A stretch of DNA of 64,000 nt, taken from assembly GCA_002772535.1 (NCBI GenBank), contig PFDP01000014.1:270126-334125 (forward strand), written 5' to 3'. Under the pieces are notes generated by a model. That model was not told the origin of the DNA. It did not search any database and worked only from the letters and a program-made list of their open reading frames with translations. Position numbers and translations under genes: made by a program. Numbering within the stretch: the stretch's first letter is position 1; each line of letters opens with the position of its first letter. Source of the stretch: Candidatus Peregrinibacteria bacterium CG10_big_fil_rev_8_21_14_0_10_36_19. GTDB taxonomy: Bacteria > Patescibacteriota > Gracilibacteria > UBA1369 > LOWO2-01-FULL-3. Below, one piece after another: positions 35,981 through 42,865 of the stretch.

Positions 35981-36071
35981 ACCTAAATAATTTTACAGAA
36001 AAAGAAGGTACACAAAGAGTATCAACAAGTCAATAAAAACTGTATAAAAAAATTACTCAAAGCTTCTAAAT

Positions 36072-36101
36072 AATTTGGCTGGGGATGAGGGATTCGAACC
36101 C
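36072..36101 (-). repeat. left att-like copy of the tRNA-Gln 3' end
   Basis: 30 bases identical to 38937-38966, and it includes a CCA-encoding end. Homology stops at 36102, next to the stop of the 36103 gene. Confidence 0.85.
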
Positions 36102-36102
36102 A

Positions 36103-36396
36103 TTACAAATCTTTCGAAGCCATTTTAGTAATACGTCTATTCCCAGCCGTACCACAACTTAATAGCACCTCATTAACAATAGGCCCCCCATCTTGATAAG
36201 AGGGAAAAACGGTTTTATTACTGTTTGTTACCATACACGCTCTAACCTTATCCGCCATACCATTACACTGACAAACAACAAGCTCCTCACCAGCATCCGT
36301 CGCTAAAACAGCTCTATCAAGAGAACTAGCAGATTCCATAACTCGATAACCAGAAATTCCACCATCAGTTTTTCTATATGAAGCATCCAAAGACAT
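36103..36396 (-). CDS. island protein of unknown function
   Basis: A 97-residue ORF from the ATG at 36396 (MSLDASYRKTDGG). A TTG reading would add 23 residues. It contains EELVVCQCNGMADKVRACMVTN with three Cys and a Gly-rich PSYQDGGPIVNE segment. There is no TM, signal or known motif. Its stop directly abuts the left tRNA fragment, as if the gene had been placed next to the att core. Real-gene status is likely but not certain. Confidence 0.5.
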   Translation of the reverse strand: MSLDASYRKTDGGISGYRVMESASSLDRAVLATDAGEELVVCQCNGMADKVRACMVTNSNKTVFPSYQDGGPIVNEVLLSCGTAGNRRITKMASKDL

Positions 36397-36479
36397 AGTA
36401 TTATTTGTTAATAATATATAGTGGACATTTCTATCAAAATTAAAACACTCAGTCAAGTAATGCAAAATCAGTATTAGTA

Positions 36480-36498
36480 AAAACTTTCTTAAAGTTTT
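36480..36498. repeat. hairpin repeat shared with tRNA-Gln terminator
   Basis: AAAACTTT-CTT-AAAGTTTT, a perfect 8-bp inverted repeat, occurs identically at 38914-38932 just beyond the tRNA-Gln 3' end. Both copies lie near a TGGCT (tRNA CCA-like) end, so it seems a duplicated tRNA-plus-terminator module. Confidence 0.7.
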
Positions 36499-36511
36499 AT
36501 TTATTGACTGG

Positions 36512-36643
36512 CTACTCGAGTCTAGTACCCTTTGGATAGCTTAAACAAATTATAGTCAATCCCATATAGTATTTTCCATAAGGATCATTGCTAGGAGCAC
36601 AAAACAATACTGTTTCACCATCTCTGCATCCTAGTAACTTCAT
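36512..36643 (-). CDS. 43-residue island ORF
   Basis: A short ORF (MKLLGCRDGETVLFCAPSND...) with a plausible ribosome site (AAGGGTGGC immediately before the ATG). It has three Cys and a protein-like composition. Its last codons and stop overlap the 18-bp repeat also found just after the Nudix stop at 38051. It could be the truncated remainder of a longer protein. Confidence 0.4.
   Translation of the reverse strand: MKLLGCRDGETVLFCAPSNDPYGKYYMGLTIICLSYPKGTRLE
36515..36532. repeat. internal island repeat, copy 1
   Basis: CTCGAGTCTAGTACCCTT, repeated at 38051-38068 with one mismatch. A TGGCT lies just left of both copies. On the minus strand it resembles a degenerate tRNA T-arm and acceptor end, but lacks the TTCGA loop. 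Confidence 0.7.
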
Positions 36644-36711
36644 GCCACCCTTAAGCTAAAACTGTCAGGGATTTTAAAGTAAGTAACAAGGAGAGACAAC
36701 ATATTAAGAGG

Positions 36712-36740
36712 TTGACAATGGGACGATTAGGTTGTTTAAT
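36712..36740 (+). promoter_or_regulatory. promoter of the island AAA ATPase
   Basis: TTGACA (36712-36717), a 17-base spacer, then TTTAAT (36735-36740). It places the transcript start near 36747 and makes ATG 36769 the natural start. A second TATAAT lies at 36760-36765. Confidence 0.6.
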
Positions 36741-36768
36741 AACGATAAAGTATGTTAACTATAATACA

Positions 36769-37788
36769 ATGAAACTGCCTGAAGTACAAAAAAGTATAGA
36801 AAGAGTTGAAAAGTTGTTACCTGCTGCTACATGTGAAGAAATAGATAAAGCAATAACAATAGTGCAACAAATAAAAGAAAATGCACTAATGGCCCTAATA
36901 TGTCATGAAGTTTCAAGAAAAATTGCCGATGCCTCAAATAAATCATTAAAAATTCCAGAAAAAGAACCATTGGATGATCATGAAGTATTTCTACCTCACA
37001 TAGTAAAATCACTCCTCCATGAAATACAAGAAAATTTGACCAGTAGCCCTGGTCTGGTTCCACATGGAATTTTACTTGCTGGCCCTGCGGGGACCGGAAA
37101 AAGCGTCATAGCTCACCATATCGCAGCAAAAGTAGGGGTCCCAATTCTACAACTGGCAATACCAACCACAGGAGATCCTAATTCTGCAAGCAAGCTAGAG
37201 AGTATGTTTGCAGCTATAAAAAGTCACAAGCCATGCATAGTAATTATCGAGGACATTGATCAGTACAAACCTTTATCCATAGATTGGAGAAGCGCAGATA
37301 GTAACGAATTAGCATTCAAGAGAACATTCCATTCATCAATAGCCGACGATCACCTCATGCAAGAAGTTCTATTTATAGCTACTACAAGATATCCAGAAAG
37401 AATAGACTCACACCTAATCACTTCTCACAGGTTTAGTGAAGTATACGCCATCCTGCCGCCTAAAACATTAACTGAACAAGTCAACTTATTCAGAGCTATT
37501 TGGTATCAAACTGAGCCAGTTAACCTACCAGAAATTGACGATCAAAAACTAGAAGCTCTTTTCAAAGATTTCCCAGCCCACATCACCGGATCAGATTTCA
37601 AGAAAATAATAATCGATGCAAAAAGACTAGCAAGTAAAAAAACAGAAAAGACTGATATAATGAATATCCTTTATGACATGAAGGAATCTATTATCAACGA
37701 CAAATATTTAAGAAAATTAGATGACTTTGATCATATGATCAGATCTGCAATTGATGCAGACAACACTTCCTGGAAAGTTGAAGAATAA
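36769..37788 (+). CDS. AAA-family ATPase of the tRNA-Gln island
   Basis: A 339-residue protein from ATG 36769; the earlier in-frame ATG lies inside the -35/-10 region. A helical N-terminus (1-95) is followed by one AAA module: Walker A GPAGTGKS (105-112), Walker B CIVIIEDID (156-164), sensor-1 region FIATTRYPE (202-210), and an Arg at 221 (TSHRFSEVY) as possible arginine finger. A helical lid follows (SDFKKIIIDAKRLASKK). It is a FtsH/SpoVK-like AAA without protease, TM or partner domains, so it probably remodels an unknown protein. It is the only plus-strand gene of the island. Confidence 0.8.
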   Translation: MKLPEVQKSIERVEKLLPAATCEEIDKAITIVQQIKENALMALICHEVSRKIADASNKSLKIPEKEPLDDHEVFLPHIVKSLLHEIQENLTSSPGLVPHGILLAGPAGTGKSVIAHHIAAKVGVPILQLAIPTTGDPNSASKLESMFAAIKSHKPCIVIIEDIDQYKPLSIDWRSADSNELAFKRTFHSSIADDHLMQEVLFIATTRYPERIDSHLITSHRFSEVYAILPPKTLTEQVNLFRAIWYQTEPVNLPEIDDQKLEALFKDFPAHITGSDFKKIIIDAKRLASKKTEKTDIMNILYDMKESIINDKYLRKLDDFDHMIRSAIDADNTSWKVEE

Positions 37789-38050
37789 TAACGAAAATAA
37801 ACTATTTAGTTGGCAATTAGTTCTCATCCCCTTTCAAGAACAACAAAACGAATCTAATAAAGAAGGGGACAAGCAGTTAGCGTACTCAATAGGTGTAGAC
37901 CTACGAGCTGTTTTACAGGTCTGGGAGCAAAACAATCCCCTTCTTATGTCGGAAATTGTAGTAAACTTTCCCCCGGGGAAAAATATCAAATTCCTTGCTT
38001 ACACAAGAGCACAAATCACTTTGCGGAGTCACTTTTTCAATGGCTGGCAC

Positions 38051-38068
38051 CTCGGGTCTAGTACCCTT
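38051..38068. repeat. internal island repeat, copy 2
   Basis: CTCGGGTCTAGTACCCTT, one mismatch from 36515-36532, lying 3 bases past the Nudix stop. It is preceded by TGGCTGGCAC. Confidence 0.7.
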
Positions 38069-38071
38069 CAA

Positions 38072-38722
38072 TCAATAGTGCCTCACACCTTTAATAATCC
38101 CACACAAACCATCAAAATAATCAGCAAGAGTTTTCGTATGTGAAGTAAATGGTATTTCAGGGATATCATTTATCCCAAAAATCCTAGCATCTGAAACATC
38201 ATCCCCAGCTTTAATAGTCCCACCAGATGGTCTCACCATCATATGCATAGCAACTTGATTCAGCTTACCAGGTAAAGGGCAACATGGATTTAGCGAAGTC
38301 TCAAAATGCCCAATAACACCGGTCTCCTCAAAAAGTTCCCTAATGCAAGAACTGCTTGGAGTTTCTCCAGGCTCAATATGTCCACCAGGCAAAACCCAAC
38401 TTCCAACGAAAGGTTCAACAGCTCTACGAACAAGAAGCACGCCAGTCCTCACTGGATCCACAAAGCGCTCAAGTTCAAGATTAGCTCCTTCCAAATCAAA
38501 ACCATCCCCCTTTCCAATATACTCAGCTGGAAATGGAACAAGACCAGCAACAACTGGAATAGGACTATTCCATCTAATAAAACCACATCCTCCATTATTA
38601 ACATCACAAACTTGCCTTCTAACTGCTTCACTTAAATAACGAATAGCACTATCACTACCACATTCTGGGCAAAACTTATAATCTTTTCCCCAAACTTGAT
38701 CTACACTCCCAGGTAATTTCAT
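38072..38722 (-). CDS. Zn-ribbon Nudix hydrolase
   Basis: A 216-residue protein. An N-terminal zinc ribbon (about 18-47: CPECGS, then CDVNNGGCGF) is followed by a complete Nudix box GHIEPGETPSSSCIRELFEETGV (GX5EX7REUXEEXGU intact). It should hydrolyse a nucleoside-diphosphate-linked substrate; the arrangement recalls NudC-like or YjhB-like enzymes, but the substrate is unknown. It ends with TGA. It is inside the tRNA-Gln island, on the tRNA strand, downstream of the tRNA 3' end. Confidence 0.85.
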   Translation of the reverse strand: MKLPGSVDQVWGKDYKFCPECGSDSAIRYLSEAVRRQVCDVNNGGCGFIRWNSPIPVVAGLVPFPAEYIGKGDGFDLEGANLELERFVDPVRTGVLLVRRAVEPFVGSWVLPGGHIEPGETPSSSCIRELFEETGVIGHFETSLNPCCPLPGKLNQVAMHMMVRPSGGTIKAGDDVSDARIFGINDIPEIPFTSHTKTLADYFDGLCGIIKGVRHY

Positions 38723-38913
38723 AATTTTATTTGATTAGAGATCCCAACACTCACTTTCCCGTAGAATTTTATAACACAAAATAAGCGTGAGTAAAAACTT
38801 TCCGACTGAGCGTAGTAATTTTTCATTGTAGGTCTCGTGGTTTCCTGCAATTAAAAAATACGAAGCTAGGGAGGAAACACTTTTTAAGAACATCCGATAT
38901 TTTGAAAGGAAGG

Positions 38914-38932
38914 AAAACTTTCTTAAAGTTTT
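38914..38932 (-). terminator. hairpin downstream of tRNA-Gln
   Basis: A perfect 8-bp AT inverted repeat 8 bases past the tRNA CCA, with a modest T-rich tail on the minus strand. It probably ends the gmk-tRNA-Gln transcript. An identical copy is at 36480-36498. Confidence 0.5.
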
Positions 38933-38940
38933 CTTAAATT

Positions 38941-39014
38941 TGGCTGGGGATGAGGGATTCGAACCCCCGATCACGGGACCAGAACCCGTTGCCTTACCGC
39001 TTGGCCAATCCCCA
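38941..39014 (-). tRNA. tRNA-Gln (anticodon CTG)
   Basis: 74 bases including encoded CCA. The acceptor TGGGGAT/ATCCCCA pairs fully. The anticodon stem-loop is ACGGG-TTCTGGT-CCCGT, giving CTG. The T loop is TTCGAAT. It begins only 4 bases after the gmk stop, so it is likely cotranscribed with gmk. Its 3' end is the attachment site of the island to the left. Confidence 0.95.
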
Positions 39015-39660: not shown

Positions 39661-40020
39661 ATTCGATTAGAAAACTTTGTTCTTTTTTACATCAATCGTC
39701 CCACAATGGACAAGTGGGGAATAAATACTTCAGAAAAAATTCTGATGTGCAACTCCCTACTTCTCAAACAAAAACAAAAATAGTTCGAGAAAAACAAAAA
39801 TAAAAATGAACGGACTCTGTGACCCGTTCTAAAAGAAAACAGAAGTTGTGGGGAGAATATGTACGTAATACCACTCTTTGAGAAATCCTTGAGCTTAAGA
39901 GCAATCTTAAACTCAAAGATCTTCAGAAATTAAAGAGCATTACGTTCGGGCGCCAGTGTCCACCTCTGATACGTGCTATTTTAAGCCTATCACGTGCCCA
40001 TGACCTGGCGCCCGTTATTT
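39661..40020 (+). ncRNA. unassigned structured RNA, ~360 nt
   Basis: A 422-base gap without a credible ORF has its own consensus promoter and several strong hairpins. These are CCCAC...GTGGG near 39700; TCAGAA/TTCTGA near 39730; GAACGG/CCGTTC near 39809-39830; TTGAG-C-TTAAGA-GCAA-TCTTAA-A-CTCAA near 39888-39916 with a GCAA tetraloop; and a closing 10-bp CGGGCGCCAG/CTGGCGCCCG stem (39947-40014) followed by TTATTT. Size fits RNase P RNA or tmRNA, but I see neither the GAGGAAAGTCC/ACAGAA signatures nor a tRNA-like end and tag. A 6S RNA or a new class is possible. Confidence 0.55.
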
Positions 40021-41814: not shown

Positions 41815-41889
41815 TCCCCTGTAGCTCAGCGGTAGAGCAACCGGCTGTTAACCGGTAGGTCACTGGTTCGAATCCAGTCGGGGGAGCCA
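41815..41889 (+). tRNA. tRNA-Asn (anticodon GTT)
   Basis: 75 bases with encoded CCA. The acceptor TCCCCTG/CGGGGGA pairs with one G-U. D arm GCTCAGCGGTAGAGC, anticodon loop CTGTTAA giving GTT, T loop TTCGAAT. The 3' end is duplicated twice downstream. Confidence 0.96.
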
Positions 41890-41954
41890 TTGAGTAGCGA
41901 GTTTTGCGGTCTATAGGCGAAGAGGCTCGCGAAATTAACGTGCCCAAAGCCGAA
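41872..41954 (+). repeat. tRNA-Asn 3'-end repeat, copy i
   Basis: 83 bases starting in the tRNA T arm and running 65 bases past CCA. They recur at 42766-42848 with 5 mismatches and no indels, exactly 894 bases away. Confidence 0.9.
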
Positions 41955-42205
41955 GGAGATAGCTCACAAAATTCACCGCGTACAGCGAAAGTAAATTTTG
42001 AGAAAGCGATCAGCAAAACCCTATTGAAAGAAAAACAAATACCTTCAGCAATTTTTTAACATGCCCACGGGCCGGATGAAAACCGAAGGTTAGTACAAGC
42101 GAAGTGAGTGAGAAAAATTGTGATAAAAAAACTCACTTGGCTTTTTTAAGCCAAAATTCAGCAACTTTTCCCCGAGGAAATTTTTACACTTCAGCTGCAA
42201 GTTTT
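41890..42205. other. gene-free stretch after tRNA-Asn
   Basis: Holds the remainder of repeat i and a partial copy (42042-42068) of the terminator-like block found at 42637-42663. Beyond it there is further similarity to the later copy (GCGAAGTGAGTGAG). No credible ORF is present. Confidence 0.7.
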
Positions 42206-42523
42206 TCAACCCAATACTCCTGTAGGAACTTCTCCAGCATCTAGCTGAATATGAATAATTATACTATGCAGAATACTCAAATCTCCTTTTACACTATGCA
42301 AACCAAGCGTAGTAGACGTAACTGGAATAGCGATAACTTGACTCACTTCATCCCTAGTCAGTCTACTAAGAGCAACTATTTTCAGTTTACGGTCTTCAGT
42401 GGCTCCTTCAAAAATTTCACGCGCTCTACCACTCAATTTAGCACAAAACGCCATGACGTCATCATCAGTTACCCCATCTACTAACTCTAAAAGCCTATTT
42501 TGCACATCTTGTAAACTTTCCAC
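42206..42523 (-). CDS. small helical protein between tRNA-Asn repeats
   Basis: A 105-residue ORF with GTG start. It is helical and charged (LQDVQNRLLELVDGVTDDDVMAFCAKLSGRAREIFEG), ending in a more hydrophobic segment (LSILHSIIIHIQLDAGEVP). No family is recognised. It is the only gene between copies of the tRNA-Asn 3' end, so it is probably cargo of a small inserted element. Confidence 0.5.
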   Translation of the reverse strand: MESLQDVQNRLLELVDGVTDDDVMAFCAKLSGRAREIFEGATEDRKLKIVALSRLTRDEVSQVIAIPVTSTTLGLHSVKGDLSILHSIIIHIQLDAGEVPTGVLG

Positions 42524-42865
42524 AAATAAAAGTTAAAAACCAAGAAACAACAATAAATCAGAAAATCACCAAACACAATACCAAGTTCGGACAAAGTCCA
42601 GTCTAGGGAGCCATTGAAAAATTGGTGGAGGCAAAGCCTTCAGCAATTTTTTAACATGCCCACTGGCTGGACTAAAGAACCTTAGGTTCGATTCGAAAAA
42701 CGAAACGAAGTGAGTATTTGAGAACTCGACCTCGCACCCGCCAGAGGCGGGGAGAATGTAAGAGCATCCAGTCGGGGGAGCCATTAAGTAGCAAGTTTTG
42801 CGGTCCGTAGGCGAAGAGGCTCGCGAAATTAGCGTGCCCAAAGCCGAAAAAAGACCCCCCCCCTC
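42524..42865. other. nested tRNA-Asn end copies
   Basis: Contains copy ii (42596-42618, GTCCAGTCTAGGGAGCCATTGA, degenerate) directly followed by a terminator hairpin (GAAAAATTG...CAATTTTTTAA, 42615-42655). Copy iii is at 42766-42848. Nothing protein-coding is convincing. Confidence 0.75.
42766..42848 (+). repeat. tRNA-Asn 3'-end repeat, copy iii
   Basis: 78/83 identical to 41872-41954, including the last 18 bases of the tRNA. It marks the right edge of an ~890-bp repeat-bounded segment. The DEAD-box gene end lies 17 bases further on. Confidence 0.9.

Follow-up and report, generated by a model that had tools for sequence, protein, structure and literature searches.

We report here on a 64,000-nucleotide stretch of contig PFDP01000014.1 from Candidatus Peregrinibacteria bacterium CG10_big_fil_rev_8_21_14_0_10_36_19 (hereafter the window), and in particular on the segment that lies behind its tRNA-Gln(CTG) gene. 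An earlier note on this DNA had described the segment as a single island, integrated at the tRNA gene and devoid of a recombinase. We find that it is likely a small cassette array rather than a single island: it probably consists of separate segments, and a 28-bp site shared within the order marks the end of two of them. Our preferred reading, to which we give a little better than even confidence, is that three cassettes lie behind tRNA-Gln, captured by site-specific recombination whose target is either the 28-bp site or an exactly copied tRNA-Gln 3' end. Together with related loci in other genomes, this likely represents a cassette system anchored at tRNA-Gln, with a mechanism that we propose rather than prove.

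The tRNA-Gln(CTG) gene (38941..39014, minus strand; ARAGORN and Rfam RF00005) is intact and is the presumed entry point of the array. Direct repeat comparison showed that 30 nt comprising its 3' end and a few trailer bases (38937..38966, minus) recur exactly at 36072..36101 (minus), with a spacing of 2865. A genome search with a 26-mer, allowing up to two mismatches, matched these two places only, and there is no third copy in the 1,074,598-base genome. The duplication claimed in the earlier note is thus exact, and an intact tRNA gene accompanied by an exact displaced 3' copy supports its claim of integration at this gene. The distal copy is the presumed end of the third segment; just past it, a by-eye reading of the sequence finds a candidate for the original tRNA-Gln terminator hairpin (36045..36075, minus). 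A tRNA-like fold at 36072-36160 (minus) was considered and dropped (z -0.15).

The earlier note would have been refuted by the same segment fixed at this place in all relatives, which is not what we found. A gmk gene with a nearby tRNA-Gln is common, with 31 of 40 relatives' stretches around gmk holding tRNA-Gln, and in none of the 40 did the three main island genes described below (Nudix, AAA and 97-amino-acid) find a BLASTP match (E value (E) 1e-4). The tRNA-Gln loci of relatives are also variable. Genomes G025 and G020 (G and L numbers are our labels for genomes and loci) share one genus with each other, and the genomes compared include none of the window's genus. Over 2.9 kb these two are 81% alike, and this extends to 5-7 bp beyond the CCA of tRNA-Gln; from there they share nothing (E 1e-4) for 9.1 kb in G025 versus 2.5 kb in G020, after which they are again 82% alike. 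It is thus at the 3' end of tRNA-Gln that the variable stretch starts. Two other comparisons were set aside: G014 and G023, of the same genus, have nothing in common behind tRNA-Gln in the stretches compared and do not serve as an empty-site pair, and the alignment of G025 with G002 halts at a run of N and is uninformative.

Within the window, segment 1 consists of a structured repeat, discussed below, and an open reading frame (ORF) for a Nudix protein of 216 amino acids (aa) (38072..38722, minus), whose stop codon lies 4 bp ahead of site 1 (38041..38068, minus), where the segment ends. Segment 2 holds an AAA ATPase ORF in reverse orientation (36712..37788, plus; 339 aa, from a later start, in database entry P0001) and ends at site 2 (36505..36532, minus). 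Both sites differ from the consensus at two positions. Segment 3 contains a 97-aa ORF (36103..36396, minus), whose frame stops 2 bp ahead of the distal tRNA-Gln 3'-end copy that closes the segment. Pfam recognised the AAA domain (E 3.5e-19) and the Nudix domain (E 2e-15). Among 5.8 billion proteins, the AAA protein had, apart from itself, a single 26% match, which covers 37% of its length, and the 97-aa ORF returned only itself; by sequence comparison, both are orphans. The AAA protein was also considered as a member of a common family, with matches in 28 of 30 genomes of the family, but outside the island the matches all have 23-31% identity and most are ORFs of 480-660 aa, which may be of the FtsH type. 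The Nudix protein has a single match, at 25% identity, among the 88 other genomes of the order (E<=1e-10). Of the four lineage-odd genes in the earlier description, the second small ORF (37751-38143, plus; no Pfam match) is doubtful, and the Zn-ribbon ascribed to the Nudix protein is a weak match (E 0.026, 14.9 bits against a cut-off of 25.6). As had been stated, no recombinase, transposase or relaxase was matched in the island ORFs scanned (Pfam; for some ORFs also NCBIfam, PADLOC and PHROGs). A defence role of the cargo can still only be suggested for this island, where PADLOC gave a weak IetA-type match (E 5.6e-10).

The 28-bp site was found as a direct repeat inside the island, with both copies in the orientation of the tRNA; its consensus is AAGGGTACTAGACCCGAGTAGCCAGCCA. 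We searched whole genomes with the pattern GTACTAGA-N6-10-CCAGYCA, with the pattern written backwards as the control. This yielded 12 matches in 8 of 30 genomes of the family, where the control gave none, and 18 matches in 14 of 89 genomes of the order (13 besides the window's own), where the control gave four matches in three genomes. Eleven of the 18 lie no more than 5 kb behind tRNA-Gln and on the same strand (three in G000, two in G001, and one each in G014, G018, G023, G033, G060 and G077), one (G041) lies 17 kb behind tRNA-Gln, and five are on contigs that start 0.4-2.4 kb ahead of the site (two in G003 and one each in G004, G008 and G066). The remaining match, in G058, is taken up below. 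A stricter 25-mer, searched in a collection of 84,980 species, hit six contigs, labelled Peregrinibacteria (three), Patescibacteria group (two) and bacterium (one); viral contigs contained no match to the 28-bp site. In the window's own genome, an 18-mer related to the site (up to three mismatches) occurs at one further place, behind tRNA-Gln(TTG), the second tRNA-Gln of this genome.

A matrix scan of the loci added decayed copies, for 35 sites as against one in a reversed control. Because the matrix was built from 17 sites, which the scan then recovered too, and because tRNA-Gln or the site was the reason for including many of the loci scanned, our claims about placement rest on the whole-genome pattern searches of the 30 family and 89 order genomes. 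Together with the G000 TTG and G004 pattern matches, the matrix sites form a set of 37. Twenty-three of these share a contig with tRNA-Gln, and all 23 are downstream of it and on its strand. Conservation is limited to 28-29 positions and fades on either side. The sites form arrays of one to seven, arranged head to tail in a single orientation within each array, at distances of 0.4-2.3 kb from one another.

We then asked how ORFs lie relative to the 37 sites. A same-strand ORF of at least 60 aa has its stop codon 0-20 bp ahead of the site in 13 cases, where 1.2 are expected from random places in the same loci. Within a wider window, from -27 to +20 of the site, an ORF ends at 24 of 37 sites, versus about 2.5-2.7 at random places; this expectation rises to 11.7 once the letters of the site, stop codons included, are laid on the random places. 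The count of 24 includes the G041 site and omits the exact 30-bp copy, and is 25 when this choice is reversed. Some segments hold two ORFs, none, or a reverse ORF. The cargo proteins are unrelated to one another and include Nudix, KilA-N, DUF2391, subtilase, Bro-N, FAD-binding, GNAT, PIF1, SOUL, Fic, glyoxalase and methylpurine glycosylase proteins, with one 27-30% protein match between the arrays of G004 and G023. The KilA-N protein of a relative's array matches the PADLOC defence candidate PDC-S22 (E 7.5e-132).

The main rival to capture by recombination gives the 28-bp motif a regulatory role at the 3' side of genes that are read by chance from the tRNA-Gln promoter, with no recombination at the motif; we assign this possibility a small but real chance. 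On this account a short T-arm-like hairpin, GGGT-ACTAG-ACCC, would halt translation in two of the frames and serve to terminate or process the RNA. Such a hairpin can be drawn by eye, the motif is found in one orientation, and it often follows closely on a stop codon, with TAG in two frames alone yielding the 11.7 ORF ends noted above. A regulatory element would, however, hardly be expected to lie mostly behind tRNA-Gln and to be rare elsewhere in whole genomes, to follow unrelated genes, or to stand at 13 of 37 sites where no ORF ends. It also sits poorly with the copy in G014, a hybrid in which a KilA-N ORF ends in GTACTAGA, and the local tRNA-Gln 3' end, copied exactly, follows it without a gap. 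The heptamer CCAGCCA is common to the tRNA-Gln 3' ends inspected and to the site consensus.

A second alternative is that the segment is an ordinary tRNA-targeted genomic island that has lost its integrase gene, the internal 28-bp copies being remnants of older attachment. In an excerpt of PMC4383910, an intact tRNA with an exact displaced fragment is the signature of such islands, and copies of this kind are found more widely in these genomes: 9 of 64 RNA genes have a copy of at least 15 nt of their own 3' end behind them, as against none of 64 in two controls, in loci that are not a random sample. A serine recombinase also adjoins tRNA-Gln in G002. We nevertheless consider integrase loss quite unlikely. 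The internal site is conserved from family to family within the order and differs from the tRNA end, and the ORFs of 23 array-related loci yielded no tyrosine recombinase (phmmer with the two tyrosine recombinases of the window's own genome, E 1e-4), serine recombinases being outside that search. This absence makes mobilisation in trans seem likelier than integrase loss. The earlier note had offered a satellite mobilised in trans or a remnant; the former gains by this result, and a lone remnant is probably not the answer.

The note had also looked to an integrase elsewhere that would match the core, and here none of the candidates could be linked to the site. One of the two tyrosine recombinases of the window's own genome, of 274 aa (L111 500-1324), lies near a contig end and scores 218 bits with the XerA model (cut-off 220) and 211 bits with the integron-integrase model (cut-off 265); the other is XerC-like. 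The 274-aa protein was rejected as the enzyme: frames of similar size occur in many genomes of the family that lack the site, and G014, G023 and G018 carry the site and show no frame of that size, in a comparison across family genomes by frame length only. The serine recombinase of G002, which belongs to the genus of G025, is a protein of 503 aa (L038 9398-10909) with Resolvase, Recombinase and Zn-ribbon domains. Reading helper recombinases and site occurrence side by side across genomes, without a statistic, showed no link between them.

Directly behind tRNA-Gln, and overlapping segment 1 as a separate feature, is a covarying structured repeat composed of a hairpin and about 135 further bases (38773..38940, minus). 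Besides this copy (window 38773-38940, minus), the genome has others at L106 8005-8165, L107 8577-8740, L110 7424-7589 and L106 13140-13306. A model built from the five own copies matched in 8 of 30 family genomes (E<=0.1), and a second model in 18 of 89 order genomes. Pairing has support from its alignment, which was fitted to the structure: it contains 113 double-change cells versus 38.8 in shuffles, and 0 of 500 shuffles equal the observed count; two opposite-strand and two partial matches are omitted from it. A covariation of the hairpin with the adjacent box was dropped as a by-eye impression. The 22 family matches that we examined lie directly behind tRNA genes (nine), behind tmRNA (three), a tmRNA 3'-end copy (one), 5S rRNA (two) or an unannotated, conserved stretch in the ssb-gmk interval (two), or elsewhere (five). 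In 15 loci of other families, two copies follow 5S rRNA and one tRNA-Lys, and most others follow no RNA gene that we could find. In the stretches scanned, no Rfam family reached its gathering score, and the repeat may be a new RNA or else a mobile element of the repeat kind.

The structured repeat also bears on a third alternative, namely that the 30-bp repeat arose from local duplication, by template slippage at the structured-repeat hairpins, which carried tRNA ends along and left the 28-bp site a bystander. Slippage would fit two cases in which little but the structured repeat separates the copies: the tRNA-Thr copy (20 bp at 172 bp) and tRNA-Asp of G014, whose 3' half is copied about 190 bp on. 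Against it, the distal Gln copy at 36072 has no structured repeat behind it, and the arrays of G058, G060, G033 and G077 have the site without a structured-repeat match. Arrays therefore do not depend on the repeat, and we regard slippage as very improbable.

Several further loci were noted. At tRNA-Asn(GTT) (window 41815-42848), 3'-end copies are present at 42597 and 42767, and an 83-nt repeat (41872-41954 and 42766-42848, 94%) flanks a 105-aa ORF; this locus is a second tRNA-end accretion, of another type. At tRNA-Thr(TGT) (L106 7992-8934), the 20-bp end copy is followed by a RelE/RelB-like gene pair (weak NCBIfam matches) and then by a copy of a 65-bp repeat. The RNA-like stretch between ssb and gmk is seen in L119, L132 and the window (39927-40015); it had no Rfam match in L119 and L132 at E 0.5, and could be a 6S-like RNA. 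At this place, within one genus, the structured repeat is present in G027, a remnant in G013 and absent save for a short stub in G029.

Returning to capture by site-specific recombination, we infer that the 28-bp site is the recombination site, that the tRNA-Gln 3' end is the point of entry, and that the enzyme is encoded elsewhere. A cassette would be captured with the 28-bp site or a tRNA-Gln 3'-end copy as its end, and the recombinase would move cassettes as circles. Tentatively, CCAGCCA might be the overlap of exchange, with the tRNA remaining intact after each insertion. A number of observations weigh against this reading. Exchange of a consensus site with the tRNA to the left of CCAGCCA would damage the tRNA, and no recombinase among the candidates (the own tyrosine pair and the G002 serine recombinase) is tied to the site. 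In the arrays compared, we saw neither an excised circle nor close relatives of a cassette in two places. The G058 array, of seven sites, is preceded by 15.7 kb without tRNA-Gln. Stop codons within the site account for roughly half of the effect on ORF ends seen in the wide window, 13 of the 37 sites lack an ORF of at least 60 aa ending there, and the AAA gene points opposite to its array. Polar decay along arrays is weakly supported, the tRNA-proximal site being nearer the consensus in 10 of 19 adjacent pairs, farther in 5 and equal in 4. Dyad symmetry of the site was rejected as weak, 348 of 5000 shuffles equalling it. Finally, sites 1 and 2 cannot be taken for decayed tRNA copies by their letters alone: they score 16/26 and 15/26, which is noise level, and two unrelated places on the same strand also score 16/26.

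A broader proposal, which we advance tentatively and hold to be possible rather than probable, is that Peregrinibacteria have a gene-capture system of their own, in which tRNA-Gln is the platform, a 28-bp site that is not an attC ends each cassette, and the recombinase comes from elsewhere in the cell or from a passing element. Single genes, some of them for defence, would thus be collected by these ultra-small cells in integron fashion, with no integron involved.

How does this compare with known systems? An integron consists of the integrase IntI, an attI site with a Pc promoter, and attC sites, which are long imperfect palindromes with R boxes. Like integron arrays, those described here are made mostly of small units in one orientation and carry unrelated cargo, and many of the units may be cassettes of a single ORF that ends at the site; stops lie just before the site in 13 of 37 cases versus 1.2 expected, and ORFs end in the wide window in 24 versus 11.7. 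Unlike in integrons, the array site is a 28-bp sequence with 28-29 conserved positions rather than a folding attC, no integrase gene was found beside the arrays in the tyrosine recombinase search of 23 loci, and the array begins behind a tRNA gene instead of an attI with its Pc promoter. A different parallel concerns the structured repeat only. The tyrT locus of E. coli has 178-bp repeats with RtT RNA, and the structured repeat is likewise a unit of about 170 bp behind a tRNA, with a 20-bp copy of the tRNA end at tRNA-Thr. It differs in standing behind several kinds of stable RNA and in matching no Rfam family at gathering score across the scanned stretches.

Islands of the Islander type, as presented in an excerpt of PMC4383910, have ends marked by an intact tRNA and a displaced exact 3' fragment, and in tandem arrays each island is required to have its own integrase gene and tRNA fragment. 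Our segment shares the intact tRNA-Gln and the displaced exact fragment with what is described there, and departs from it in that two segments end at a site that is not a tRNA fragment and that no integrase was found in the island ORFs scanned. The dif modules of Acinetobacter, to go by a portion of PMC6449649, have 28-bp sites and small cargo without a recombinase of its own, on which the dif/Xer system of the host is thought to act; a title cited there gives the sites as inversely oriented. The arrays resemble these modules, as far as that portion describes them, in their 28-bp sites and small cargo units without a recombinase, and differ from that title in that sites are direct within each array. 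Among the titles and abstract openings returned by our literature searches, none dealt with such cassettes in these bacteria. If our reading is true, the reduced-genome Patescibacteria have a modular uptake of single genes at a fixed and harmless spot, and the 28-bp site offers a means of locating accessory and defence genes in them. The cassette system would then be neither an integron nor a dif module, which raises the question of the recombinase that moves it.

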